Source: a virus. From it: DNA of 25,755 nt. This document shows positions 6,007 through 25,755 of this stretch, piece by piece. The notes beneath the pieces are model-generated. The model ran no database searches. It was not told the DNA's origin and saw only the letters and a program-made list of their open reading frames with translations. Each line of letters starts with the position of its first letter. The stretch's first letter is position 1. The stretch covers positions 1-25,755 of the IMG/VR virus record IMGVR_UViG_3300021349_000048, one strand, 5' to 3'. Both the position numbers and the translations under genes were made by a program.

Positions 6007-7653
6007 TTAAGCTGCCTTTCGCGCCGCTAGCGCCTCGGTAATAACGTGCCAAATGACACGGTGAGCGTGTTCTGGCGTGATGTCCATCTGACACTGCGCC
6101 ACCCCGGACGGTTTGCCATCCTCGCCCGTCACGTTTTTGCAGTGATCCCAGTTGTAATGCAGCTGGTGACAAGCTGGCGCTTCATTGTTGCCACGCCCCG
6201 GACAACTGGTTTTATCGGCCCAGAGAACATGGGTGTTGTCCCAGTCGCGGGTCAGGTTGTCGTTCGATGAGTGCGACAGGAAGATCACCTTCGGCATCGG
6301 TTCGTGCGAGACCGCATTGAGTACGCCAGTCTCTGGCCCGATCACGAGGTCCGCCGCAAGGCTGAACGTCATGGTCTGGCGGATTGACCAGTCGCCCGAC
6401 ATCGGGTGTACCCGCGGGTCGATCTGCACCTTGCGGCCCTTCTCGTCCTTCACCGGCTGACCGTCTTCGGATACCTTGAACCAACCTTGTTCGAGCAGTA
6501 CCGCAGCGGGACCGCCGACCAAGAAAATATGCAGTTTCGGGAACTCGAGCAGCAGTGCCGCAATGATGTTATCCACAAATGGCCACGTTTTATGCACGGA
6601 TGAACCGGCCAGTGACCAGACTATGTTAAATTCACCACTCTGCGCCTTCAGCACCTTGGCCCACTCGCGTTCCTCGGTAGTGGGATAGAAATGCACCTGT
6701 GGCTTGTGCGGAATACCTGCCGCGTCGTGTTGCAGCTCCAGATAGTTCATGTTGGTGAGCTTGTGCCGTAGTGCCGGTGGCACACCGTGCAGGAACCGGC
6801 CCGGTATCGCTAGAAGCGTTCCTTCCGCCGACTCCGACAGATTCACCCACTTGTCGAACTTTGCCTTCTGGTAGTCCCAGAACGCGCCCAGCGCTAGGTT
6901 AGGCACCTGATCCTTGTCCTGATAGTAGAACTCGTCTACATTCGGGTCATGCAAGATGACATCGGATCCCGGTGGAGAACAGAAGGCCGTGACATGGTAG
7001 CCCTGCTCCTTCAGGCCCGCGAAGATGCTCGACGCTTGGACGATATCGCCAAAAGCGCCGTATCGGACGACAGCGGCCCGCTTGGGGTGCTTGGGGATAA
7101 GGCAGCTAAATGTCTGCCCCTTCGCCTTTTTTTGAAAGACGAAGAACAGGCTGTACTCGCTGCCCTGATCCCGTCGCTGCCAGTCGAGCAGATCCCAATT
7201 GCCCGCCTTCTCCATCAGCTCAATCAGCCGGGTATAGCCGACGTTCCACTTGTGGTCGGGATTCGCGCCCGGCTCACCGACCTTTGGGTACAGCGTCTCG
7301 TCGGGCAGGTACAGGACCAAGTACCCGTTGATTTTGATGACCCGCAGCCACTCCCGTAGGCACTTGACCACGTTATCAAACGGAATGTGTTCCAGTACGT
7401 GACTGGAGAACACGAAGTCTAGCGAGTCGGTGCCGAAGATCTTCAAGTCTGCCGCGTCGTCGATCCAGACGTCGGGCTTGAACTGATGGCCAAATAGCTG
7501 AATGTCAGCGCCGTTGTCGACGCCGATCATGTGCGGAAATGCCTTGTTCGGGCCACAACCGATGTCTAAACCCCGGCCACGGGTCCACTTTGGCAACTCC
7601 CAACGGATCTTGCCTGCCTCGTTCCCCTGCGGATCTTCTTTCTTCCAGACCAT
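6007..7653 (-). CDS. Fused SAM methyltransferase - GT9 (heptosyltransferase-like) glycosyltransferase
   Basis: A 548-residue two-domain enzyme. Residues about 25-175 are a class I methyltransferase: motif I LDIGCGPNK (29-37), acidic D46 for the SAM ribose, and HVLEHIP (85-91), as in Methyltransf_11-type enzymes. From about 193 the protein resembles glycosyltransferase family 9 (ADP-heptose:LPS heptosyltransferases): VVRYGAFGDIVQASS (195-209), WSLAGSSVHKTWPF (346-359), FLVGGP (377-382), DLVIGPETGVLNA (435-447), and a Cys-rich tail with C484, C495, C505 and C521 before ITPEH, all in family order. GGAGG precedes the ATG. Likely role: transfer of a heptose-like sugar and methylation of sugar or acceptor. 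It sits between adhesin and neck genes and may work with the heptose-synthesis genes at the right edge. Exact donor and acceptor are unknown. Confidence 0.85.
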   Translation of the reverse strand: MVWKKEDPQGNEAGKIRWELPKWTRGRGLDIGCGPNKAFPHMIGVDNGADIQLFGHQFKPDVWIDDAADLKIFGTDSLDFVFSSHVLEHIPFDNVVKCLREWLRVIKINGYLVLYLPDETLYPKVGEPGANPDHKWNVGYTRLIELMEKAGNWDLLDWQRRDQGSEYSLFFVFQKKAKGQTFSCLIPKHPKRAAVVRYGAFGDIVQASSIFAGLKEQGYHVTAFCSPPGSDVILHDPNVDEFYYQDKDQVPNLALGAFWDYQKAKFDKWVNLSESAEGTLLAIPGRFLHGVPPALRHKLTNMNYLELQHDAAGIPHKPQVHFYPTTEEREWAKVLKAQSGEFNIVWSLAGSSVHKTWPFVDNIIAALLLEFPKLHIFLVGGPAAVLLEQGWFKVSEDGQPVKDEKGRKVQIDPRVHPMSGDWSIRQTMTFSLAADLVIGPETGVLNAVSHEPMPKVIFLSHSSNDNLTRDWDNTHVLWADKTSCPGRGNNEAPACHQLHYNWDHCKNVTGEDGKPSGVAQCQMDITPEHAHRVIWHVITEALAARKAA

Positions 7654-7672
7654 GAGTTCCTCCCTCTGGTGC

Positions 7673-7951
7673 TTACTTAAACGGGTTGAGCGCGGACAAA
7701 ATCCGCGACATCAATCCGGGCTGTGATGCTACTGGCTGAGATACTACTGGCTGTGCGTTTGGATCAGTAAACAACCCGTCCGCAGGGTTGTAGATAAACC
7801 CAATTTGCGCCGTTGGTGGGTCAGTGTCGGGCACGGCTGTTTGTGGAGTGCCGTCAGTGTCAGGATCGGGGAACCATGCGCCCTCACCATCCCACCAAAC
7901 AAGACTGGTCACGATATTGGATTGGTTGATGACTGCGTAAGTGTTGGACAT
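7673..7951 (-). CDS. Small tail-fibre accessory-type protein
   Basis: A 92-residue protein starting MSNTYAVINQSNIVTSLVWW, then DGEGAWFPDPDTDGTP and IGFIYNPADGLF. This pattern (Tyr-Ala-Val-Ile-N, a Val/Trp-rich strand, a Gly-x-Gly turn, then IG-x-x-Y-N and G-x-F) recurs in small proteins encoded just after tail-fibre genes, often annotated as fibre assembly or accessory proteins. The C-terminus is a Gln/Pro/Val-rich stretch plus a short amphipathic end (LMSRILSALNPFK). The ATG forms a TGATG overlap with the stop of the glycine-rich adhesin gene, so production of the two is coupled. I think it helps fold or is bound to the adhesin, but that is inference from position. Confidence 0.62.
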   Translation of the reverse strand: MSNTYAVINQSNIVTSLVWWDGEGAWFPDPDTDGTPQTAVPDTDPPTAQIGFIYNPADGLFTDPNAQPVVSQPVASQPGLMSRILSALNPFK

Positions 7952-9546
7952 CAGAAAAACTCCACAATGTAAACGTAGCCGTCACCGCCCTTACCGCCGT
8001 TACCGCCGGTCAATGAATTGGTGCTGTTACCGGCACCGCCGCCGCCACCGCCGCTGCCAAAGACACCCGCGCCACCGGCTTGACCATTGCCAGAAGTTGC
8101 ACTTGAGGAGCCACCGCCGCCGCCACAGGCTGCTGCTTGAGGAGATGATGTGTAAATTGCTAAATCAGAGGAAGTTCCATTCGCGCCTGCGCTTGCAACA
8201 GATCCCCCGGGGAGATTGAGCGTCGTGCCGCTGTTGCCACCCGTCACGGCTGTGCCCGCTGTTAAAACAAAACCGCCACCCGATCCGCCACCCGACGGGC
8301 CGCCGAAACAATTTCCACCGCCTGCAGATTGACCAGATGTTCCCGAACCACCACCACCCGATCCCGCATTGCTAGCCCCTGTAAGACTATTGTTTGCGCT
8401 GCCACTTGCTCCGTTAGCGTTAAATCCGCCGCTTCCACCGTATGTTCCCGTACCGGCAATAGCGTTTGTTCCAAACCCGCCGTTGGCTCCGCCACCCCAA
8501 CCGGGGCCACCGCCGCCGCTGGCCGTTGCAGAGACACCGGGAGCGCCACCACCGCCACCACCGCCGAGCAAATATCCTGCAAAACTACTGTTGGCACCCT
8601 GACCGCCTTGACCGGCAATACTGCCGCCCGTTGGCGTGACACCGCTTTGTCCGCTTGCGCCGCCCGTGCCAAGCGTAATAGCCACCGGGGTTGATAAGCC
8701 GCTTACTAAGAGGGTTGCAAATGCCCAGCCTGCGCCGCCAGCGCCGCCACCACCAGATCCACCGCTAATCGCGGCATAGGTGCCACCAAAGCCGCCGCCA
8801 CCGCCGCTACCGACCACCAAGGTGCTTAGAACAACAGCGCCAGAACTCGGCGTGTAACTTGTGCCTGAAGCGATAGTGCCGCCGCTTGAAAACGCAGTCG
8901 TTGTGGTATTGGCATACGACACGCTTGTCGTGCTTGAAGCGGTTACTTGCGCGTTTGATGCGTTGTAACCCGATGGCGTCATGCCCGTGATAGTGATGAC
9001 AGTTCCAACGGGGAGTTTTTTGGAAATAGCAGAAAATGTCAGCGTGGCAACCGATCCGTTGCCAGATGCTCCCGTTACTGCAATCGTTGTGGCCGTACTG
9101 GTTGTCGCAATGTAATAAGACAGTTTGGTGAACAGCAGCGCATTGGTCTTAGCCAAAATCGCCCCGTTTAACGTCAACCCCGTGGCCGACGTTAGGTCTA
9201 AAGACGTACCAGACGCTGCGCCCAATACGGGCGTCACTAGCGTGGGTGAGGTCGCGAGGACGTTATTGCCCGTGCCGGTGTTGGCCAGTTCGCCGACGAA
9301 GCCCGCGTTGTCGTACAAGATATAACCGGGAGTGCCGCCGACGACAGGCGTAATGCCAAGGGCCAGCGTTGCGTTCGCGGCTACCGATACCCAGACGCTG
9401 CCATTCCACGCGTACAGGCCACTGTCTGAGGTGTACGCGAGCATCCCAATGGGTTCGCCGACCATCTGCGATAGCGTCGGTAGGGTCGCGACGGTAAAGG
9501 CGCTGCCTGCCGCTTGGCTGCGTCGTACCGGTAAGTCATATGACAT
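7951..9546 (-). CDS. Glycine-rich tail adhesin (polyglycine-type receptor-binding protein)
   Basis: A 531-residue protein. I use ATG at 9546 (MSYDLPVRRSQAAGS), preceded by AGGAG; the upstream GTG at 9576 lies inside the terminator hairpin and would add ten residues. Residues 1-60 (with LAYTSDSGLYAWNGSVW) look like a tail attachment segment; about 85-130 carries fibre-type repeats (TSPTLVTPVLGAASGTSLDL); about 140-235 is Ser/Thr-rich beta structure; from about 247 to the end it is dominated by glycine, with runs of 4-7 Gly, ending GGKGGDGYVYIVEFF. Poly-Gly domains with Gly-rich helices form receptor-binding tips in gp38-type adhesins of T-even phages; this could be a similar tip. Downstream is a small accessory gene. 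Assignment as a virion adhesin is likely, the receptor unknown. Confidence 0.75.
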   Translation of the reverse strand: MSYDLPVRRSQAAGSAFTVATLPTLSQMVGEPIGMLAYTSDSGLYAWNGSVWVSVAANATLALGITPVVGGTPGYILYDNAGFVGELANTGTGNNVLATSPTLVTPVLGAASGTSLDLTSATGLTLNGAILAKTNALLFTKLSYYIATTSTATTIAVTGASGNGSVATLTFSAISKKLPVGTVITITGMTPSGYNASNAQVTASSTTSVSYANTTTTAFSSGGTIASGTSYTPSSGAVVLSTLVVGSGGGGGFGGTYAAISGGSGGGGAGGAGWAFATLLVSGLSTPVAITLGTGGASGQSGVTPTGGSIAGQGGQGANSSFAGYLLGGGGGGGAPGVSATASGGGGPGWGGGANGGFGTNAIAGTGTYGGSGGFNANGASGSANNSLTGASNAGSGGGGSGTSGQSAGGGNCFGGPSGGGSGGGFVLTAGTAVTGGNSGTTLNLPGGSVASAGANGTSSDLAIYTSSPQAAACGGGGGSSSATSGNGQAGGAGVFGSGGGGGGAGNSTNSLTGGNGGKGGDGYVYIVEFF

Positions 9547-10676: not shown

Positions 10677-11159
10677 CTAGATCTTCTTGCTAGGAACGTC
10701 ATTGGTCATGCCGGGACGACCCATGTCCTTCGTCTTAGGCATCATCGAACCCGAGGCTCGATAGACCCAGCCGTCACCGGGATAGCCGATGCCGCCCTCG
10801 TAGGCCAGCATCTCCATCTTACGGATGTCGCTGTTCTCCTGATCCTCGATGTCCATGCCGGGTGGCAGGCTGTTGTAGAAGGCATTGACGCCAAACTCCA
10901 ACCCCTTTTTGGCGAGGTAACCGCTGTTGCGAACACCGACCAGCTCGTTGTGCGACATCTCCGCACTGTCAGGCAGCACGCCGACATCAGCAACGTGCTG
11001 GCCCTTCATCTCGTGACGCTTCTGCGCCCGAGCGTTGGCCGACTTGATGATATCGGTGTGCGTCGGGGCATCGCCGCCGTACATTTCGGTCGCGAGCTGG
11101 TCCGCAGTGATCTGCGGAGTCTCGTACATTTTCCGACCGGGTTGCGTGATCTTAGGCAT
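10677..11159 (-). CDS. Small hypothetical protein with LPPGMDIEDQE core
   Basis: A 160-residue charged protein starting MPKITQPGRKMYETPQITAD. The segment FYNSLPPGMDIEDQENSDIR followed by KM (about residues 93-114) is shared with the downstream gene. The N-terminal half is helical and charged (IIKSANARAQKRHEMKGQ), and the C-terminal part is Gly/Met/Lys-rich. AGGAG precedes the ATG, and the gene starts ten bases after the stop of the probable head-decoration gene. Position in the capsid block suggests a head-associated role, but I do not recognise the family, and no enzymatic motif is visible. Confidence 0.62.
   Translation of the reverse strand: MPKITQPGRKMYETPQITADQLATEMYGGDAPTHTDIIKSANARAQKRHEMKGQHVADVGVLPDSAEMSHNELVGVRNSGYLAKKGLEFGVNAFYNSLPPGMDIEDQENSDIRKMEMLAYEGGIGYPGDGWVYRASGSMMPKTKDMGRPGMTNDVPSKKI
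10837..10870. repeat. Direct repeat copy 2 (shared core of two paralogous genes)
   Basis: Partner of the repeat at 10445-10478, with 32 of 34 identical bases in the same orientation, 392 bases away. It encodes the matching LPPGMDIEDQE core of the upstream paralogue. Confidence 0.8.
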
Positions 11160-11169
11160 GAATTACTCC

Positions 11170-11718
11170 TTAAGCCTGTACGTTCGCGCCGGGGAGGATC
11201 TGGTAATCCAGTGTGACAAGGTTGACACCCGAGGTGTCCGTACCGTTCACGACGTAGATCTGATCGCCCTGATTGATGGAAAGACCGCCCAAACCGGCAG
11301 TACCCGTCGACGTGTTCAGCGAGACCGTCTGTGTCGCGCCGATCTGGCCGGTGGCCGTCCCGTTCGCGTACAGCGTGTCCACGTAGAACGGACCGATGGT
11401 TGAGGTGGACAGCGAAGGCGCTACACCCGCCGCTGCGGTGTTGGTGATACGGATCAAGTTAAGCTGTGAGGCGTTAATGTGAATCGTAGCCGAGGTGTTG
11501 GTGGAACCACCGTAGTTGTAGTACTGGGTCGCGGTGTATGTCGAGGTGGACGCAACCGTCGTGAAGGCCGTGAGGCCAAACAGCAACAGGTTGGCGTGTG
11601 CCACGAATTTCGCCGAAACGCCAGACGCGCCAGCCGCCGTGATCGTCGCGAACGTGCCGCGAGCGATGTAAGCAGCGTTGTCGTAGGCCGCACTTTTGAA
11701 AGTATTGAGGTTAGACAT
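11170..11718 (-). CDS. Probable head decoration / minor capsid protein
   Basis: A 182-residue protein directly after the major capsid gene, 13 bases downstream, with AAGGAG before the ATG. It begins MSNLNTFKSAAYDNAAYIAR and is rich in Thr, Ala, Ser and Asn with few charges; the sequence alternates short beta-type stretches (YTATQYYNYGG, TIGPFYVDTLYANG, GDQIYVVNGTDTSG). The composition and its place next to the coat gene suggest a protein that decorates or cements the capsid surface. It has no cysteine and no predicted membrane segment. I do not recognise a specific family; an alternative is a minor tail or neck protein. Confidence 0.6.
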   Translation of the reverse strand: MSNLNTFKSAAYDNAAYIARGTFATITAAGASGVSAKFVAHANLLLFGLTAFTTVASTSTYTATQYYNYGGSTNTSATIHINASQLNLIRITNTAAAGVAPSLSTSTIGPFYVDTLYANGTATGQIGATQTVSLNTSTGTAGLGGLSINQGDQIYVVNGTDTSGVNLVTLDYQILPGANVQA

Positions 11719-11731
11719 AGTTTAGTGCTCC

Positions 11732-12703
11732 TTAAGCCAACGAGTCCCACTTCACGATGCGGGTGTTAATCGCAGCGGTGTGGACAATGCCGAAACCGCC
11801 CAAGTAATACCAGGCGATGCCCTTTGAACGACCGTAGTCGGTTGGGATCTTGCCGCGCATTTCTTCAGGGACCGCGATGGCTTCTGCCACCGTGTCGTTG
11901 CCGAAGAAGAACATCCAGTCGCTGACGCCCTTCGTCCACGCAGTGGTGGTCGTGCCGTCCGTGCCGGTGCCCTTGGCGATATTGGTCTGCTCAATGTACC
12001 GAGTGTTCTCGTAGCGGCCAATCTCACCGTTCATGATGAGGTTGAAGCCCGTGTCCGAGTACTGGTGAATCGTCTCAAGGTTGTTCTTGAGGGTACGCAA
12101 GGTCGTCGGCCATGCAATCGCGTAATAGTCGTCCGCGATATAAGCCGGGATGTTGCGTTCCTTCATCGCGTCCACAATGGCCTTGGCGTGCGCGTTGTTG
12201 AACGCGATGCTGTTGGTGCCCGTGACGGTGCCGTTGGTGTAGAGCGTGATGGCCGTGGAACTGGTGCCGTCGACTGGGATCGCTCGCAACAACGTCTGGT
12301 TGAACTGGGTCCAAGCACCGCGGTCGAGGTACTTGACGCAATCGTTCTTGAGTACCTTCTTGATGACGTCCTCAACCGGAAATTTCGACAGATTGTCGAG
12401 TTTGCCCGAGTAGGGAACGCTGTTACCGGCTTCAGTGACCGTCAGGGTGCCCTGAATGATCGTGAAGTTGGTTTCCGGCATCGTGTTCGTCTCGACGAGG
12501 ACCGCACCAGCGGCTGAAACGTCAGAGAAAACGTCCCACGTAAACACATCGCCTTTTTTCTTGCCCTGCTGGCTGATGTCGTGGACATCGGCAAACTGGC
12601 GGAACTTGACCAGAGGCTGCACGTTAGCGCGCAGTACGTTGGATAATTGGCGGCTGTAGAGATAGCCCCCGAGGCTGTTGACTGCCCACACCTGACCGGC
12701 CAT
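11732..12703 (-). CDS. Major capsid protein, N4-gp56 family (HK97 fold)
   Basis: A 323-residue coat protein. Diagnostic segments of the N4-gp56 major capsid family are present in order: VKFRQFADVHDISQQGKKKG (32-51), TLTVTEAGNSVPYSGKLDNL (85-104), VIKKVLKNDCVKYLD (112-126), a long helix-rich centre, and near the C-terminus MRGKIPTDYGRSKGIAWYYL followed by GGFGIVH. It forms the icosahedral shell. A strong AAGGAG site lies just upstream and overlaps the end of the homing-endonuclease gene. The scaffold gene, normally its direct neighbour, is now separated from it by that endonuclease gene. The family call is confident by motif pattern; the length is slightly short of many relatives. Confidence 0.85.
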   Translation of the reverse strand: MAGQVWAVNSLGGYLYSRQLSNVLRANVQPLVKFRQFADVHDISQQGKKKGDVFTWDVFSDVSAAGAVLVETNTMPETNFTIIQGTLTVTEAGNSVPYSGKLDNLSKFPVEDVIKKVLKNDCVKYLDRGAWTQFNQTLLRAIPVDGTSSTAITLYTNGTVTGTNSIAFNNAHAKAIVDAMKERNIPAYIADDYYAIAWPTTLRTLKNNLETIHQYSDTGFNLIMNGEIGRYENTRYIEQTNIAKGTGTDGTTTTAWTKGVSDWMFFFGNDTVAEAIAVPEEMRGKIPTDYGRSKGIAWYYLGGFGIVHTAAINTRIVKWDSLA

Positions 12704-18770: not shown

Positions 18771-20762
18771 TTAATTAGACTGAGCGCACTGGTACGTAAT
18801 AGTTAGTTTTACCTGATTAGGTGATGCCCATGCGTAACTCGTTCCCCCAAGAATTCCAACGTTATTTTCCCACAGCCTACATTTATTACTGGTGTAAACA
18901 TCGACAGATCCAGCTTTGTAAGAAGCCGCCAGAAGCACAATAAAAGACCCAACAGAATATGGCTCAAGCGCATTAAACGGCAGTGAGAACAGCCATTGTC
19001 CAGTTCCTAAAACGGTTGTAGAACCAACAAACATACTAATATTTACTGTTATATTTGATCCGCTTCTTGCATAGGTTCCTGTGATTGTTCCGTTGCCAAG
19101 AGAAGCATCGGAATTTGTTGAAGAAAGTGCAGGGGTGTAACTGGAGAAATCACCCATCGTGTTCCCAACGACAGATGAGCCTGTTGAAAATTGGTTGTTG
19201 CCAACCCCATAGAATCCTGTGACTCCGGCTGAAACACCAGAAAAAGGCGTTCCAGAAACATTGGCATTTACAAAGTTGTTTGACTCAACAATTACCCTAG
19301 TTGCAGAAGTATTAGAAAACGTAATAAATGCAAGTGCAGCAGTGCTTGCAAATGAATTACATCTTATAGATACGCAGGAACTAAAGTTACCAGCAGTTCC
19401 CAAAAGCATAGTTCTGCTAAAACTTATTTCTGTCGTCGTTGCTGTTTCAAACGAATTTCCCTGAATCAATAAATTGTAAGTGTCTGTAATTTGGCACGAT
19501 ATTGAACCAGCATTAAAATTGTTGTTTGTAAAAACGTGGGTGTTGCCACCATCGTCTGCAATATGAACGCCAGTGGTGGTATTGAACTGGCAGCCGTCAA
19601 TCGTAATCTGATTCGTATAAAATGAATTTGCGCCAACAGTGTGACTTGCGCCATTGACAAGCCAAACACCTACGCCACCAGCCGGGGCAATGATGTAGCA
19701 GTTTTGCAATCGCACAATTTCAGATTGATCGAGAATCACGCCATACTGATTTCCATACGTCGCTACACGCTCAATCGCAAGAAAAGTTGATCCGACATCA
19801 GCAATAGATGCTTTTCCCGCCGTCTGAATTGTGCACAAAACATAAATATCGCTAATATAGATATTGGCTGCTGTGCTGGAATTTATTGGGTTGTTGATCT
19901 GAATGGCATCAGATACGCCCGTGTACTTGATAACGGTTCCTTTGACGCCCGCTAAATCTATTCCAGAGCCAATGTAATTGACGTTGTTTTTGAATATCAG
20001 TGTGCTAGAACATAGAAAAACACCTGTAGGAAACGTGAGAGTTCCGCCTACGGATGACACATAGTTGATTGCATTTTGGATTGCAGCCGCGTCATTCGTA
20101 CTCCCATCCCCCACCGCCCCAAAATCCTTAACCGACACCGACTCCTGCAACTTATTCGTCACCGTGCGAGCAACCGAGCCGGTGCTGCCTTGGGTGTAAC
20201 TCTGCCGTGCAACCGGCAAGATACCCGAACTGATATTCGCCGCGTTGGTCGTATCGGTCGTGGCCGACGCTGCAAACGCAACGCCCGCCGTCTTGGTGAC
20301 CGTCAGTGCGCCGGTCGTGGCTACCAGCGTCGCATCGCCGCCGATTGTGGTGCCGTTCAATACCCCTGAGTTGTTGTACTGCACCTGACCCGACACGCCA
20401 CCGGCCAGCGAGGTGCCGACTGGGACTGAGGTGGTGTAGTTGTACAGCACCGTTTGGCTGACCTTCAAGCCGACCAAGAACGTCAGGGTCGTTGGCGTTG
20501 TCCATGTGTAGTCGCTGCCCGGCACCATGACCGCGCCGTCGACCGAGATAAACAGGTTCGCCAGTGATCCGGGCGATGCAGGCAGGGTGAATACCGTCTG
20601 TCCAGCCGTGGCCGTGAACGTGCCGACGTAGGCCTGACCGTAGCTCGCGAGCGCTGCCAGGTTGTAGCCGGTGACCGTGTAGTCGCCGCCATTGCGGACG
20701 ATGGGGATCAGGTCGGTATTCTGGGCAACGCCGCCCGCAGGGAACTGGGAAATCTTTGGCAC
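18771..20762 (-). CDS. Main tail spike with anchor domain and pectate-lyase-like beta-helix
   Basis: A 663-residue protein starting with GTG at 20762 (GGAG six bases upstream). Residues 1-110 begin MPKISQFPAGGVAQNTDLIP, a start typical of virion-attached phage fibres, followed by a beta-rich neck (GTFTATAGQTVFTLPASPG and VDGAVMVPGSDYTW). Residues 120-190 are fibre-type repeats, 192-224 the linker with KLQESVSVKDFGAVGDGSTN, then a right-handed beta-helix to about 545, and a C-terminal jelly-roll-like domain (IVLLAASYKAGSVDVYTSNK). It should bind, and perhaps cut, a host surface polysaccharide. The anchor part (20100-20762) is GC-rich while the helix part is clearly AT-rich, which shows domain exchange. 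Family call is firm, substrate unknown. Confidence 0.85.
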   Translation of the reverse strand: MPKISQFPAGGVAQNTDLIPIVRNGGDYTVTGYNLAALASYGQAYVGTFTATAGQTVFTLPASPGSLANLFISVDGAVMVPGSDYTWTTPTTLTFLVGLKVSQTVLYNYTTSVPVGTSLAGGVSGQVQYNNSGVLNGTTIGGDATLVATTGALTVTKTAGVAFAASATTDTTNAANISSGILPVARQSYTQGSTGSVARTVTNKLQESVSVKDFGAVGDGSTNDAAAIQNAINYVSSVGGTLTFPTGVFLCSSTLIFKNNVNYIGSGIDLAGVKGTVIKYTGVSDAIQINNPINSSTAANIYISDIYVLCTIQTAGKASIADVGSTFLAIERVATYGNQYGVILDQSEIVRLQNCYIIAPAGGVGVWLVNGASHTVGANSFYTNQITIDGCQFNTTTGVHIADDGGNTHVFTNNNFNAGSISCQITDTYNLLIQGNSFETATTTEISFSRTMLLGTAGNFSSCVSIRCNSFASTAALAFITFSNTSATRVIVESNNFVNANVSGTPFSGVSAGVTGFYGVGNNQFSTGSSVVGNTMGDFSSYTPALSSTNSDASLGNGTITGTYARSGSNITVNISMFVGSTTVLGTGQWLFSLPFNALEPYSVGSFIVLLAASYKAGSVDVYTSNKCRLWENNVGILGGTSYAWASPNQVKLTITYQCAQSN
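20091..20189. repeat. Shared spike linker, copy A
   Basis: These 99 bases encode residues 192-224 of the main spike and match copy B at 18597-18695 (27 of 33 residues identical). The GC-rich anchor ends and the AT-rich beta-helix begins at this site. Confidence 0.75.
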
Positions 20763-20765
20763 GAA

Positions 20766-21038
20766 TCACTCCATCAGGATCGGGTCGCCAACCGAGTCGG
20801 CGGGCTGTTGCATCTGGATCGCGTAGCCCTGCTCGGTGAGGATATCGAGTACGCCTTGGGTGTAGAACCCGGTGACGCCTCGGTCGGTGCTATCGAACCC
20901 TCGCCCATTCGAGAACTGGTAAACACGGTGGTCTGGGGCGCTGAACTCGCTGCCCCACGCTCGCCTGCACATCTCGTTCCACGAGAACGTGCGGCTAGTG
21001 ACTGGTAAGCCAAGCGACGCCGGGACGGTAGAGCGCAT
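20766..21038 (-). CDS. Small hypothetical protein before the spike gene
   Basis: A 90-residue protein, MRSTVPASLGLPVTSRTFSW onward, with RVYQFSNGRGFDSTDRGVTG in the middle and VLDILTEQGYAIQMQQPADS near the end. It has mixed alpha/beta character, no cysteine pair, no membrane segment and no motif I recognise. The ATG overlaps the stop of the upstream gene as TGATG, with GGAG a few bases before. Located between the large terminase and the main spike, it may be a small assembly factor; that is only position-based. Confidence 0.6.
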   Translation of the reverse strand: MRSTVPASLGLPVTSRTFSWNEMCRRAWGSEFSAPDHRVYQFSNGRGFDSTDRGVTGFYTQGVLDILTEQGYAIQMQQPADSVGDPILME

Positions 21039-21226
21039 CAGTAGACTCCTTCCAAACCGGCTAGGTGACGGGTGACCGACTCACGGGAACGCAGCTCGGT
21101 CAGCTCACCAGCAATGCGTCGCACCTGACCGGCCTCGGTCGAGGTGATGTGACCCCGGCCCGCAGCCACGCGCTCGATGGTACGTACCAGTTCGCGGATC
21201 TGTAGGTCGGTGAGGTCCATTCTCAT
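21038..21226 (-). CDS. Small hypothetical helical protein after terminase
   Basis: A 62-residue protein, MRMDLTDLQIRELVRTIERV onward, predicted to be almost all helix and rich in Arg, Glu and Leu, with heptad-like spacing of Leu/Ile. It could be a small dimerising or nucleic-acid-associated protein. The first ATG overlaps the large-terminase stop as ATGA; a second ATG two codons later is also possible. I do not recognise a family. Confidence 0.6.
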   Translation of the reverse strand: MRMDLTDLQIRELVRTIERVAAGRGHITSTEAGQVRRIAGELTELRSRESVTRHLAGLEGVY

Positions 21227-22860
21227 GTTAGTTCAGGTTCCAAGATGAAGCTGTCGATGTATTCAGGTGGCCGGGGATCAAGGTCATACACCCTCGAAAC
21301 GGCATCAATTAGATCCTTCAACCCCGTGAAAGGGTAGTACCCAACCTGCATCCTGAACCGTTCGGACAGATTGTACAATTGGCCGTTTTCGTCCCTTTGG
21401 ATGATCGCCTTCGCGATACGGTAGTCATATCCGGCCTGAATCATGCGTTTCTGCTGGTCGGTTAGATCTGGATCACCGTCCTGCGGTTCGTAAGGCAGGT
21501 AAAAATTATGGCCTCGAATATCGGGCAACAGGCGCTGTACTCGGTCGTCTTTTGATCCCGGACCCTCAGCAGGCCACTCCAGCTCCTCAATGCTCAGCCC
21601 CTGCACGTTCTCCACCCGAATGCGCTCTAAAAAATAGTCCATGTCGGCAATTGCGCCATACCGCTCGTAGCCGACCTTGACGCCAATAACGCCTGGTGCT
21701 GTCCTCCACTTGGCCCACAGACTGCGCATCCCGGTCCAACGTTCCAAAAGGTCCATCTTGTGGTCAAAGCCGTCTAGCAGGTACTTCTGGCCGCTTTGGT
21801 CGATGCCAACTACCGCCATCGCGGTGTTTGCTGACCCTTTTTTCTTAGATCTCGCCGGGTCGATCATCACGTACACCATCAGCGCCTCGGGCCGTGCCTG
21901 ATAGACCTGTAGGTCGTCTGGGTTGAACCAGCGTTGCGACCCTGCCAACGGGTTCTGCAGCATCTGGGTGGCAATCGTCGCCTCAAGCTGGGTCTGGATA
22001 CGCCGATCCCACTCAGTCTGGTTGAACAGGACTGGCCGACCGTCTCTGGTCCCGTCGTGGGTAGCCGGGTAGACCCGGGGCTGCACAGCCCCAGTGCCCA
22101 TAATATGGGCGTAAGTGTCTGCAAACGAGTACCGCGTGCCGATATGCCAAACTTTACCGCCCAAGCTGCCGAGGTTGTCGGACATGGACCACGCCTCGGT
22201 GGTTTTTTGAGTCTGCTCAGGCGTGCTGACCGACTCCAGTGTCACAACGTCGTCGTAGACCCGGAGTTTGAAATGCCGGGACGTCGGCTGGCCGTCCACC
22301 AGCCCGTGCGCCTCGACCGTCGCTTCTTTGGCGTTCGATTTGCGCTTGACGATGATTCCGTTGTCCAACGACCAACTGGGCGCTTCGCCCTCGGGGTTGG
22401 CGTAGAGAATCTCGGGGAACAGCGCTTGCAATAGACGGTTGTTCGCCAGCTCGCGCTTGATCTGGGCCAGAAACGCTTTAGAGATCGGCTTGGTGTGACT
22501 GAAGATGCCCACCGTGATCTCAGGGTCGATCAGGATCTGCTGGATGATGCCGGCGAACGTGATGATCGTGGACTTGTAGTGTTCTCGCGCCCACAGGTCT
22601 AGGTGACCGTCTGGAGCCGCTTCGACCTCCCGGCAACGGGCGTACAGCCACGGGTGCCAGGCATCGGCTCGGCCCAACAGCTTGACCAACAGGTAGTAGC
22701 GGTCGACCGTCGCCAACCACCGCATCGCGCTGTAGTCGGTCCCGTTCCTGTCCAGCGCATCCCACGACGCAACTAGATCACTGAACCGAGTGGCCCTCAG
22801 CGTCGATTGCACTGCGGCCAACGAGTGCGCGGTTGAGCCGGTCGGTGAGTTCGACCCCAT
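21223..22860 (-). CDS. terL: Terminase large subunit
   Basis: A 545-residue packaging motor. The ATPase domain has a deviating P-loop LWAREHYKST (89-98; the Lys-Ser-Thr end is kept, the Gly before Lys is replaced by Tyr), a Walker B region LRVYDDVV (199-206; D203/D204), and the coupling region around GTRYSFADTY (241-250). The C-terminal nuclease starts at VYVMIDPARSKKKGS (329-343), with D334 the first metal ligand of the RNase H fold, and continues to about 520. It binds the portal, translocates DNA and cuts the concatemer. AGAGG lies six bases before ATG 22860, which creates an 83-base overlap with the small terminase; a GTG at 22812 lacks such a site. The family is certain; packaging type (headful or fixed end) is not readable. 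Confidence 0.92.
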   Translation of the reverse strand: MGSNSPTGSTAHSLAAVQSTLRATRFSDLVASWDALDRNGTDYSAMRWLATVDRYYLLVKLLGRADAWHPWLYARCREVEAAPDGHLDLWAREHYKSTIITFAGIIQQILIDPEITVGIFSHTKPISKAFLAQIKRELANNRLLQALFPEILYANPEGEAPSWSLDNGIIVKRKSNAKEATVEAHGLVDGQPTSRHFKLRVYDDVVTLESVSTPEQTQKTTEAWSMSDNLGSLGGKVWHIGTRYSFADTYAHIMGTGAVQPRVYPATHDGTRDGRPVLFNQTEWDRRIQTQLEATIATQMLQNPLAGSQRWFNPDDLQVYQARPEALMVYVMIDPARSKKKGSANTAMAVVGIDQSGQKYLLDGFDHKMDLLERWTGMRSLWAKWRTAPGVIGVKVGYERYGAIADMDYFLERIRVENVQGLSIEELEWPAEGPGSKDDRVQRLLPDIRGHNFYLPYEPQDGDPDLTDQQKRMIQAGYDYRIAKAIIQRDENGQLYNLSERFRMQVGYYPFTGLKDLIDAVSRVYDLDPRPPEYIDSFILEPELT

Positions 22861-23119
22861 TTGGTGCCTCTATAAATTCTGGCGCTTCGCCCACGTAAAC
22901 AATTTGCGCCGCTTTGCCGTCGACTCGATCAGCAACTAACTGCACCGCCCACTGCTCGCCCGCCATTGCAGCGACGATCAACTGGTCGCACAACTTGTCC
23001 AATCCCTTTTCCACCGTGCCACCAGATCGAGACAGCGCCCTTTTAACCGCGCTTTTGAACTCAGATCCACGCGCTGCGTTGTCGTTTCCAATGGGTCGGT
23101 GTTTCAAGGGCTTAGTCAT
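22778..23119 (-). CDS. Probable terminase small subunit
   Basis: A 113-residue protein placed immediately before the large terminase, with which it shares 83 bases in a different frame. Sequence: MTKPLKHRPIGNDNAARGSE, a basic helical part FKSAVKRALSRSGG, then LCDQLIVAAMAGEQWAVQLV and ADRVDGKAAQ, a pattern (helix, then [AL]-DR-x-DGK-x-Q) common in small phage DNA-binding packaging proteins. The size and location are as expected for a TerS that recognises the packaging site and regulates the motor. The last 30 residues, inside the overlap, are probably less constrained. The ribosome site is weak, so translation may depend on the upstream small gene, which ends 19 bases away. Confidence 0.74.
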   Translation of the reverse strand: MTKPLKHRPIGNDNAARGSEFKSAVKRALSRSGGTVEKGLDKLCDQLIVAAMAGEQWAVQLVADRVDGKAAQIVYVGEAPEFIEAPNGVELTDRLNRALVGRSAIDAEGHSVQ

Positions 23120-23138
23120 TGATGCGCCAAGTCTTTGA

Positions 23139-23276
23139 TTACGCTACAGAAGATGCTAACGCAGCGTCAACACCAGCCTGAAACAGCGCCCTAATCGCGT
23201 GCGCGTGGTTCTCAGTTTCAGCCGCTTTGTACAGCAGCTCCAACGCCTCATCGCTAATCAGGTCTTTGCTGTCCAT
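23139..23276 (-). CDS. Very small protein (45 aa) before terminase
   Basis: An ATG at 23276 opens a 45-codon frame that ends in TAA at 23139: MDSKDLISDEALELLYKAAE at the start, then TENHAHAIRALFQAG and an Ala/Ser/Val tail. It is acidic in the first half and strongly helical (one amphipathic helix of about 35 residues). The ATG shares its A with the last base of the preceding TAA (TAATG), so translation is coupled. The perfect packing against both neighbours supports a real gene. The function is unknown; I do not recognise a family. Confidence 0.6.
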   Translation of the reverse strand: MDSKDLISDEALELLYKAAETENHAHAIRALFQAGVDAALASSVA

Positions 23277-23410
23277 TACGAGCGCGTCTTGTTAGGCGTG
23301 GCTTTTTCCAATTTCATCGGCTTCTTCATCGCCGGCGTCTCTTTGTGCATTTTCTGCGCCATCTTTTTGGCTTTCATCGGCTTGAACTTGTGTGCTGAGT
23401 CGGCTGACAT
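23276..23410 (-). CDS. Very small basic, Met/Lys-rich protein (44 aa)
   Basis: An ATG at 23410 opens a 44-codon frame ending in TAA at 23276: MSADSAHKFKPMKAKKMAQK, then MHKETPAMKKPMKLEKATPN and KTRS. About a third of the residues are Lys or Arg, with seven Met, and the unit P-M-K recurs (PMKAKK, PAMKKPMK). It starts one base after the stop of the upstream gene and is joined by TAATG to the next, which makes it a credible gene. The strong positive charge suggests binding to nucleic acid or membrane, or a DNA-associated minor protein; I do not recognise it. Confidence 0.58.
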   Translation of the reverse strand: MSADSAHKFKPMKAKKMAQKMHKETPAMKKPMKLEKATPNKTRS

Positions 23411-23411
23411 T

Positions 23412-23636
23412 TCAGGTATCCCCATGGTAATTGGAAATCGCGTTATACCCAGTCAGCGCCCCATATGGGCTTTTGGTACGCCGGGTGTACAGCTCAAGGC
23501 GATGCGGTAGATCCTTGTTGTGCCTGTTCAGGATCGTGGCATCCAGATCGTAGTCGCCCGTAATGTACGGGGTCTGGCGCCACCCTTCCGGGCAACACTT
23601 GTGCACTGGGTAACCGTTGCCTTTAGGCGCTTTCAT
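23412..23636 (-). CDS. Small hypothetical protein (74 aa)
   Basis: I use ATG at 23636 (MKAPKGNGYPVHKCCPEGWR), preceded by TTGGAG, which gives 74 residues and a 14-base overlap with the end of the nucleotidyltransferase gene; a longer frame to 23720 would lie deep inside that gene. The sequence has two adjacent Cys (residues 14-15), then TPYITGDYDLDATILNRHNK and YTRRTKSPYGALTGYNAISN. It is polar, with several aromatic residues, and probably a small folded domain. No family is recognised. It is the first gene after the heptose cassette. Confidence 0.6.
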   Translation of the reverse strand: MKAPKGNGYPVHKCCPEGWRQTPYITGDYDLDATILNRHNKDLPHRLELYTRRTKSPYGALTGYNAISNYHGDT

Positions 23637-24096
23637 GCATTTGCTCCAACAACTTCGTCGTGCTGACGCCTTCAACCCTGCCGCACTGGTGAATTTCCGG
23701 GCCTTCAAAGACCGGTTCACCGACAGGCAGATGCTTCCACCCTATCCTACGGTAAAAGATTGGTAAAGCCCCGTGATCGTAACCTTTGAACAAAATCTGT
23801 GGCCGAATCTGCAAAAGCAACTTTTGGTCGTCCCCCTCAAACGGGATTACGGCAATCGGGGTCAGCAATTCCCACCGGGGTTTCAGTCTTGCTAGGTCAC
23901 CATGCCAGCGGTGAATTGCCCAAAACCGGTTGCCCCAGTTCTGAATCGGTCGGGTCGGTCCTTTTAACCGCATGACCGACGCATCGCTGTTTAAGGCAAT
24001 GGTCAGGTGGTCGCAATTCGCCAGCGCCTCGGCCAGCATCAGTTTGTGACCCTCGTGCAGCAGGTCGAAACAGCCGTTTACCAACCCCGTTTTCAC
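23623..24096 (-). CDS. HldE C-terminal-type / HldC-like heptose-1-phosphate nucleotidyltransferase
   Basis: A 157-residue cytidylyltransferase-fold enzyme starting GTG at 24096. It has VNGCFDLLHEGH (6-17) with the catalytic H14-x-G-H17 motif, LNSDASVMRLKGPTRPI (35-51, matching NSDAS-x-x-RLKG-x-x-RP of the RfaE2 family), an acidic EGDDQKLL segment (87-94), LFKGYDH (102-108) and EGVSTTKLL (142-150). In bacteria this domain, usually fused to the kinase in HldE, makes ADP-heptose from heptose-1-phosphate and ATP. Here it is a separate gene joined to the kinase by a GTGA overlap, almost exactly where the HldE domains are fused. Residues 52-83 are longer and more aromatic than in E. coli HldE. The family is firm; the exact nucleotide and sugar are inferred. 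Confidence 0.88.
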   Translation of the reverse strand: MKTGLVNGCFDLLHEGHKLMLAEALANCDHLTIALNSDASVMRLKGPTRPIQNWGNRFWAIHRWHGDLARLKPRWELLTPIAVIPFEGDDQKLLLQIRPQILFKGYDHGALPIFYRRIGWKHLPVGEPVFEGPEIHQCGRVEGVSTTKLLEQMHESA

Positions 24097-24878
24097 AGCA
24101 ACGCCCGCAGCTGGTCAGCCGAACAGGTCGCCGTACCCACCTGCCCCACCACATGACCGGCGGCTAGGTTTGACAGCTCAGCAGCTGTGTGCAGGTCGAC
24201 GCCTGCTGCCAGGCAGGCGCCAACTACGGCCACCACCGTGTCGCCTGCCCCACACACATCGAACACTGTTTTTGATGTGGCCGGAAAATGTTTGTCAATT
24301 CCGTTTTCGTGCAATGACAAACCACGCTCGCCTAGTTTAAACAAGATGGTCGGAAAGTCGTTCATGACGACGTTCTCGGCTTCGTCAGTGTTAGGGCAAA
24401 TGATTGTGCAGCCTCGATATTTACTGAAATCCTCACCCTTTGGGTCCACCACGACTGGGATTGTGTGCACGCGACAAGCCAGAATCAGGTCAGCGACGAA
24501 TTCCCGATCCAAAAAACCCTTGTCATAGTCGCTGAGGATCACCGCATCAATGCCGGTTAGGTCGGGCGTCTCGGTCGGCGGTTCGTAATCGACATCATCG
24601 TCGATGCGCAGCAAATGGTGGCTGCCCGCCATGTACCTGTGCTTCTCGCCCCACGCTACGGTCGGAAAATGCGTTTTTACGTTGCACCCGAGCGCGCGCA
24701 CGTTAGCCGCCACGTTGGCAGCCCCACCGGGGCGCGTCTCACGGGTAAATTCCACAAAAATCGGGACCGGGGCTTCTGGACTGATCCGCTCAACGTGCCC
24801 TTCGTGGTAAACGTCCAGCATCGGATCGCCCACCACCAACACGGTGACGTCCTTAAATTCATCAATGATGTCAGTCAC
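24093..24878 (-). CDS. HldE N-terminal-type heptose-7-phosphate kinase (PfkB family), compact
   Basis: A 261-residue ribokinase-fold protein starting GTG at 24878 within a GTGA overlap with gmhA. Motifs follow HldE in order: LVVGDPMLDVYHEG (14-27), RISPEAPVPIF (31-41), RPGGAANVAANV (49-60), LRIDDD (90-95), ILSDYDKGFLD (114-124), VVDPKGEDFSKYRG (143-156), CPNTDEAE (161-168) and DVCGAGDTVV (207-216) with D213 as catalytic base. It should phosphorylate D-glycero-D-manno-heptose 7-phosphate at O1. It is about 55 residues shorter than the E. coli kinase domain; the missing parts lie after RALG (64) and before LFKLGERG (179-186), while substrate and ATP motifs remain. It ends at the normal end of the kinase domain. 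Confidence 0.88.
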   Translation of the reverse strand: MTDIIDEFKDVTVLVVGDPMLDVYHEGHVERISPEAPVPIFVEFTRETRPGGAANVAANVRALGCNVKTHFPTVAWGEKHRYMAGSHHLLRIDDDVDYEPPTETPDLTGIDAVILSDYDKGFLDREFVADLILACRVHTIPVVVDPKGEDFSKYRGCTIICPNTDEAENVVMNDFPTILFKLGERGLSLHENGIDKHFPATSKTVFDVCGAGDTVVAVVGACLAAGVDLHTAAELSNLAAGHVVGQVGTATCSADQLRALL

Positions 24879-25450
24879 TTGCCAATCCCCTTTTCAATTG
24901 CGTGGCAAAGTACGTGCGTCACTACCATGTGCATCTCTTGGATTACCGCCGTACTGTCTCCCGGCACAATGATGTCCACCGCGCATAGCGCAGCCATCCC
25001 CTTCCGGCCACTGATCCCAAGGACTCGCATCCCCTTTTTCTGGGCCGCAAAGATTGCCTCTTTGATGTTTTTGCTTTTACCCGAGGTGCTGAACACGATA
25101 AGGGTGTCCCCAGAGTTTCCCAGCGCCTCGATCTGGCGACTGAACACTGTCTCGTACCCATAATCGTTTGCAGCCGCTGTCAAAACGCTGGTGTCCGCTG
25201 ACAGACTGATTGCAGCGATTGCTCGCCGGTCGGTCTCAAACCGCACCACCAGCTCGGCCACCAAATGTTGCGCCTGTGCCGCTGACCCGCCGTTGCCGCA
25301 GACCAGAATTTTGCCGCCGTTTGCTAGGCTTTCCAGACACATCTGGGTCGCAGGTTCCAGCCGATCGTGCAGCACCCGTGCCAGATCGGTCAATGACCGG
25401 CCCGTCTGTCCCAGTCGTTGCGATATCTCCAAGTCGGTTAAAACGCTCAT
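24875..25450 (-). CDS. gmhA: Sedoheptulose-7-phosphate isomerase
   Basis: A 191-residue SIS-fold enzyme, one residue shorter than E. coli GmhA. It shows CGNGGSAAQAQHLVAELVVR (51-70) with H62 and E66, FSTSGKSKN (120-128) for the phosphate loop, and IQEMHMVVTHVLCHAIEKG (170-188), where Q171 and H179 align with the E. coli metal and catalytic residues Q172 and H180. All four active-site positions are therefore intact. The reaction is conversion of sedoheptulose 7-phosphate to D-glycero-D-manno-heptose 7-phosphate, the first step of ADP-heptose synthesis. The ATG overlaps the stop of the Ala-rich gene upstream (ATGA), and GGGGTGAGA could serve as ribosome site. It feeds the kinase encoded next. 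Relatives include DnaA-initiator-associating DiaA, but the operon supports GmhA. Confidence 0.9.
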   Translation of the reverse strand: MSVLTDLEISQRLGQTGRSLTDLARVLHDRLEPATQMCLESLANGGKILVCGNGGSAAQAQHLVAELVVRFETDRRAIAAISLSADTSVLTAAANDYGYETVFSRQIEALGNSGDTLIVFSTSGKSKNIKEAIFAAQKKGMRVLGISGRKGMAALCAVDIIVPGDSTAVIQEMHMVVTHVLCHAIEKGIGK

Positions 25451-25710
25451 TTCTCACCCCGCGCCGCTTTTTCCGCCTCCCACGCCTCTTTCTTTTCAGC
25501 CCACGCTTTCCTAGCCCTCGCCCGCTCCGCCCGCCCCGCATCCCGCTCTTTAGCCCGCGCCGCGATAAATGCAGCATTTGCAGCAACCCACGCAATTCGC
25601 GCTGGATCCGCATCCCACGCCGCTTTCTTTGCAGCCCACGATTCAGATAACGCCGCTCGAGCCGCTTTCGCCTCAGCTTTTAGTCGCTTTACTTCAGTTT
25701 GGTCGCTCAT
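25447..25710 (-). CDS. Small Ala/Lys/Trp-rich helical protein
   Basis: An 87-residue protein with very biased composition: MSDQTEVKRLKAEAKAARAA, then units such as SWAAKKAAW (24-32), IAWVAANAAFIAARA (39-53) and KAWAEKKEAWEAEKAARGEK (68-87). It should be a continuous or broken amphipathic helix with Trp at regular spacing. Its last residues match the end of the cut gene just upstream (EAW...AA-x-GEK), so the two look like tandem copies. Both junctions are ATGA overlaps, and the downstream one leads into gmhA. Possible roles are coiled-coil structural or membrane-surface protein; I do not recognise a family. The Arg/Ser-rich reading on the other strand is a shadow. Confidence 0.6.
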   Translation of the reverse strand: MSDQTEVKRLKAEAKAARAALSESWAAKKAAWDADPARIAWVAANAAFIAARAKERDAGRAERARARKAWAEKKEAWEAEKAARGEK

Positions 25711-25755
25711 TTCTCACCCTCCGCAGCCAACGCCGCCCTCCACGCCTCCCACGCC
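25707..25755 (-). CDS. C-terminus of a second Ala/Trp-rich small protein, cut by window edge
   Basis: The right edge holds only the last 15 codons and stop of a minus-strand frame, AWEAWRAALAAEGEK, ending in the ATGA overlap with the next gene. The sequence resembles the end of that next gene (KEAWEAEKAARGEK), which suggests a tandem duplication that continues to the right of the window. The start and length are not visible. Confidence 0.5.
   Translation of the reverse strand, partial: AWEAWRAALAAEGEK

Follow-up and report, generated by a model that had tools for sequence, protein, structure and literature searches.

The window, a single 25.8-kb contig of an uncultured virus (IMG/VR record; 25,755 bases), carries three consecutive genes beside its terminase genes whose products are, on family and structure matches, well supported as GmhA, an HldA-type kinase and an HldC-type nucleotidyltransferase. 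The same contig encodes, within its virion block, a protein (MT-GT9) that joins a methyltransferase to a GT9 heptosyltransferase-like domain and is the obvious candidate user of a heptose donor. We propose, as an evenly balanced proposition, that these genes form a donor-plus-transferase module in which the trio raises ADP-D,D-heptose together with a host GmhB, and the phage GT9 protein uses this donor. Heptose-making genes are known phage cargo, but they are less familiar in combination with a core transferase; searches of one open-licence library found no description of a conserved association between a terminase-side heptose cassette and a core MT-GT9. Were the trio and this transferase to cooperate, they would constitute a compact module that both makes and attaches an LPS inner-core sugar. 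Such a module would place what is now a loosely annotated 'LPS auxiliary gene' in a pathway with a named product user, and would provide a testable glycosylation chemistry for an uncultured, widespread phage group.

The long ORFs of the window lie on the minus strand (Table 1). Their order is the gmhA cassette, a small conserved ORF, a terS-like gene, terL, two spike-like proteins and the portal, followed by a scaffold-like protein, the major head protein, a Gly/Ser-rich protein and MT-GT9, and then by a head-closure protein, a hydroxylase, an acetyltransferase and probable internal proteins; the spike, scaffold and internal-protein labels were assigned by eye and by position. The three heptose ORFs lie exactly where a sequence-only reading of the window had placed them, and adjoin terL and the terS-like ORF, as that reading also reported. 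It had further called the genes translationally coupled: both junctions are 4-bp overlaps (GTGA), and the 87-residue ORF overlaps gmhA by 4 bp, so coupling itself is plausible. Its HldE-type labels named the right families, but the kinase and nucleotidyltransferase are separate genes (HldA plus HldC) and not a fused HldE. A promoter and terminator scan of positions 20700-25755 gave nothing exceeding shuffled sequences.

Table 1. Positions of the features discussed, in the window or, where an identifier is given, in related contigs
Feature	Position	Strand	Basis or remark
87-aa Ala/Lys/Glu-rich ORF	25447-25710	-	no Pfam match
gmhA, sedoheptulose-7-phosphate isomerase, 191 aa, ATG start	24875-25450	-	NCBIfam, solved-structure match, active site
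hldA-type D,D-heptose-7-phosphate kinase, short form, 261 aa, GTG start	24093-24878	-	NCBIfam, HldA match, GAGDT, clade
hldC-type heptose-1-phosphate nucleotidyltransferase, 157 aa, GTG start	23623-24096	-	rfaE_dom_II, HxGH
Small conserved ORF after cassette, just before terS	23412-23720, true start probably 23636	-	also in trio-less relatives
terS-like ORF	22778-23119	-	position only; no family match
terL, terminase large subunit	21223-22860	-	phrog_38, E 6.5e-35
Spike-like proteins	20762-18771; 18743-17295	-	common segment, by eye
GIY-YIG homing endonuclease-like	13233-12706	-	by eye
Major head protein	12703-11732	-	virion block
MT-GT9, 548-aa fusion: class I methyltransferase (about 1-180) and GT9 heptosyltransferase-like domain (about 190-548)	6007-7653	-	Pfam, fold, profile
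Aspartyl/asparaginyl beta-hydroxylase	3201-2602	-	tail-gene region
GNAT acetyltransferase	2605-2150	-	tail-gene region
Cupin and glycosyltransferase-like gene	G009 36756-38212		beside kinase
ATP-grasp/PurD-like protein	G001 10729-12051; G004 6964-8178; G005 29148-30467; G007 11158-12480; G014 36149-37318		by eye

Profile searches, a check named in the sequence-only reading, returned heptose families as the best NCBIfam matches for all three consecutive pathway steps, with every score below the curated cut-off. GmhA scored 198 bits against PRK13936 and 185 bits against TIGR00441 (184.8 against a cut-off of 209.45 bits, below it yet still the best family), ahead of DiaA at 135 bits, and its profile matched the solved GmhA structure 1tk9 (E 8.5e-73). 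The protein combines the SIS fold with the H/E/Q/H metal and catalytic residues that had been read from the sequence: E66, Q171 and H179 do not vary among 21 aligned phage GmhAs, and H62 is conserved in at least 90% of them. The kinase scored 241 bits against rfaE_dom_I (below the cut-off of 345), and its profile matched the solved HldA structure 4e84 (E 5.9e-71). It has a PfkB fold nearest to heptose-7-phosphate kinases and a GAGD motif whose catalytic Asp, the D213 of DVCGAGDT singled out earlier, is invariant in 17 aligned phage kinases. Two segments found in bacterial enzymes are absent from the phage kinase (261 residues versus about 315).

Most sequences of both enzymes fall into phage clades of their own, a possibility that the sequence-only reading had raised. 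Sixteen of the 17 phage kinases fell into a phage-only clade (support 100/100), separate from the sampled Pseudomonadota, Synergistota and few Acidobacteriota and from cyanophage kinases; 19 of the 21 phage GmhAs formed one group (99/99) in a tree whose outgroup represents one phylum only.

The nucleotidyltransferase is the least certain of the three enzymes. The rfaE_dom_II model matched all 18 phage nucleotidyltransferases and was the best family for the window protein, at 79 bits against a cut-off of 181.5, a low score that leaves ADP insecure as the nucleotide. The HEGH motif noted earlier occupies residues 14-17, with H14, G16 and H17 of HxGH invariant across the 18 aligned sequences. Because the alignment profile best matched solved cytidylyltransferases, we only infer that the nucleotide would be ADP.

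The operon had been treated as a trait of one phage; the genes are real, but the cassette is conserved across a large group of uncultured phages. A terminase search returned 80 loci, and the cassette was counted in the 20 whose sequence reaches 4.5 kb or more upstream of terL: beside terS/terL, 11 held all three genes, five held one or two and four held none, so that 16 of 20 keep at least one. Incomplete cassettes showed the patterns G--, GK-, G-N and -KN (G, gmhA; K, kinase; N, nucleotidyltransferase). The small ORF that follows the cassette is retained where the trio is absent, which makes the trio look like cargo beside a core gene. This ORF, whose product of about 74 residues (GDYDLDATILNRHNKDL in the window) has no assigned function, is a core gene, probably outside the heptose pathway.

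Among cultured phages, the relatives of the window terminase are all distant, with no more than about 27% identity. L002 and L003 are the closest contigs, with kinases 100% and 94% identical to that of the window, and the three are near-identical phages. All three contigs end, the window at 25755 and L002 and L003 at their left ends, 799-898 bases upstream of the start of the kinase gene; the sequences of other relatives extend further. Relatives were found in MAGs labelled Acidobacteriaceae, Proteobacteria and Methylophaga, labels too weak to name a host, and host naming on this basis was rejected.

In G014, a more distant relative, genes for a kinase, GmhA, a nucleotidyltransferase and a GmhB-like phosphatase follow one another at a different genomic location. 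The G014 kinase and GmhA were placed outside the main phage clades, which suggests that this set was acquired separately; the kinase branch is long and its placement unsure. G014 was the only one of 18 records with a GmhB, and an HldD epimerase was found in none of the 18; because these records are fragments, absences of GmhB, HldD or trio genes carry little weight. A complete ADP-L,D-heptose pathway, with both GmhB and HldD, was found in none of these fragmentary records.

Turning to the candidate donor user, the MT-GT9 protein went unmentioned in the sequence-only reading. Its N-terminal half matched Methyltransf_11 (36.8 bits), and the predicted structure has a whole-protein mean pLDDT of 81.8. 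The GT9 domain model has a GT-B fold, matching WaaF (1psw, E 1.7e-11) best, followed by another GT9 protein, WaaC and TibC. Profile-profile comparison of this domain with bacterial GT9 proteins (E. coli WaaF, WaaC, WaaQ and WaaU plus MAG GT9 proteins) gave a probability of 98.1% (E 7.4e-14), against 0.3% for the methyltransferase half as a negative control. D203, K355, E441 and four Cys are invariant in the phage GT9 alignment, and the first three line up with equivalent conserved positions in WaaF. A four-Cys motif near the C-terminus is also present in a Methylophaga WaaF-like protein (L151). The phage form differs from WaaF and WaaC in being fused to a methyltransferase, encoded in the virion block and below the Pfam PF01075 cut-off, which no member reached (best relative 20.4 versus 22 bits). 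GT9 enzymes are not all heptosyltransferases. The TibC/Aah autotransporter heptosyltransferases (BAHT), whose four-Cys motif is an iron finger, resemble the phage protein in fold match and four cysteines, but their Cys spacing differs and their N-terminus is a beta-barrel, not a methyltransferase; a BAHT-specific reading of the C-terminal motif was dropped, since L151 has the same kind of motif. TibC uses ADP-D,D-heptose (PMC4358343).

Fifteen sequences cover the slot from the major head protein to the head-closure genes, and every one of them has the MT-GT9 gene; among them are the window itself, G017 (a near copy of it) and two contigs, G015 and G016, that were fetched through the MT-GT9 protein. 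The methyltransferase and GT9 domains are separate genes in G014, and a distant phage contig from a Methylophaga MAG (C55) carries a stand-alone GT9 gene (L147) at the same position. Profiles of all three donor enzymes found no match over the whole 45.4 kb of C55, which rules out the trio elsewhere on it; gmhA and a kinase occur on another contig (C14) of the same MAG. The 38-kb G005 also keeps GT9 and has no trio. As both do so, GT9 is not dependent on the phage trio; the transferase presumably can use host donor, with the trio as a booster. No relative was returned by tblastn of MT-GT9 against cultured phage records.

In the proposed pathway, GmhA would isomerise sedoheptulose 7-phosphate, the short HldA-type kinase would produce the 1,7-bisphosphate, the host GmhB phosphatase would take off the 7-phosphate, and the HldC-type enzyme would charge heptose 1-phosphate with ATP, the cassette and host GmhB together yielding ADP-D,D-heptose. 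The GT9-methyltransferase of the virion block would then consume this donor. Late expression of the trio and GT9 genes is probable, because they share one strand among packaging and structural genes. We infer the link between trio and transferase from their common genome and the transferase fold, and the tie between them is one of co-occurrence. The sequence-only reading had suggested that the phage boosts or redirects heptose supply. A boost is the natural interpretation and is partly supported, by the enzyme identities and its fit to the patchy loss of single genes. As purposes, the sequence-only reading had named surface remodelling, LPS repair and virion glycosylation, offering nothing to decide among them, and it missed MT-GT9 as the candidate donor user.

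Cues to the acceptor are opposed, with the virion-block position slightly favouring a particle protein and the similarity to WaaF favouring LPS. Since the transferase belongs to the core genes of the particle block, we lean slightly towards a virion surface protein rather than host LPS. A more specific proposal is that this phage group heptosylates its own virion: the donor pathway would feed a core GT9-methyltransferase, which would attach D,D-heptose, possibly methylated, to a particle protein. We consider this proposal unlikely in its full form; if true, it would be protein heptosylation run by a virus. A fibre-like gene just upstream of GT9, Ser/Thr-rich in the window's closer relatives (S+T about 0.22 versus a background of 0.129, sd 0.052), was considered as acceptor and set aside as not general and only a hint.

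Host LPS remodelling differs from the proposed module in the acceptor alone: the phage would raise ADP-heptose, and its GT9/methyltransferase would decorate the host core or O-chain with (methyl)heptose, so that superinfection is blocked or new particles do not stick to debris. The top fold match of GT9 is an LPS heptosyltransferase, the four-Cys motif is common to phage GT9 and the bacterial WaaF-like protein, and comparable cyanophage genes have been read in this way (PMC2984593). However, GT9 lies within the virion block and is kept in all slot-reaching relatives, unlike typical accessory surface-modifying genes, and we give remodelling a real but distinctly minor chance. The single-gene losses, expected where the host supplies the remainder, and the presence of GT9 without the trio would also fit a trio that only tops up the host pathway during infection, so that host enzymes can carry on ordinary LPS synthesis, the GT9 protein having an unrelated job. 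Such a top-up, which we think rather doubtful, leaves unexplained both the transferase fold of known ADP-heptose users and the trio's persistence in the packaging cassette.

Possibly, the enzymes have changed specificity to a different sugar or nucleotide, such that the product is not ADP-heptose, as the sub-cut-off NCBIfam scores of all three and the proximity of the nucleotidyltransferase profile to solved cytidylyltransferases might indicate; with three consecutive steps best matching heptose families and all active-site residues kept, a shift of this kind seems improbable. Cyanophage LPS clusters have been raised as possible stuffer DNA for headful packaging (PMC3037559), but active sites kept across diverged relatives and the placement of most genes in phage-only clades make it very hard to regard the trio as passenger DNA without function in the phage.

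Previous studies list gmhA among well-characterised viral auxiliary genes (PMC9238414) and report waaC/waaF/waaQ and gmhC in Lake Baikal viruses (PMC8066274; PMC9611531). Phage heptose clusters are already a known kind, since comparable clusters exist in cyanophages. Seven LPS genes are common to P-SSM2, S-SM2 and S-SSM7 (T4-GCs 260, 265, 266, 304, 305, 307 and 308; PMC3037559); in the P-SSM2 annotations, T4-GCs 304 and 305 are a heptose kinase/adenylyltransferase-like gene and a carbohydrate kinase, and T4-GCs 307 and 308 a cysteine dioxygenase (cupin) and a nucleotide-sugar epimerase. The clusters of P-SSM2, S-CAM1, S-CAM3 and S-T4 likewise hold nucleotidyltransferase, short kinase and GmhA-like genes together, and their adjacent cupin has a relative beside the kinase of G009 (best E 1.7e-15). 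Unlike the window cassette, they lie mostly near tail-fibre genes, with none beside the terminase in the stretches read, and they include a carbamoyltransferase in three of four cases, an epimerase nearby in all, and short annotated phosphoheptose isomerases (about 107-115 residues). Cyanophage and present phage kinases form separate clades yet lack the same segment, which may reflect either common descent or parallel trimming; the trees do not join the groups. The bacterial GmhA/HldE (HldA plus HldC) pathway has the same enzyme families and active sites, whereas in the phage the kinase and nucleotidyltransferase are separate, the kinase is shortened and the cassette is without GmhB or HldD.

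Elsewhere in the window, the two spike-like proteins have in common the segment GSVARTxxxKLQESVSVKDFGAVGDG, as in pectate-lyase-type tail spikes. The GIY-YIG homing endonuclease-like protein, encoded immediately ahead of the major head protein, appears to bear NUMOD3-type repeats and has a relative (55%) in G005. Relatives of the beta-hydroxylase occur in G005 and G007. After the internal virion proteins, related phages carry a conserved protein of about 390-440 residues that resembles an ATP-grasp/PurD-like ligase.
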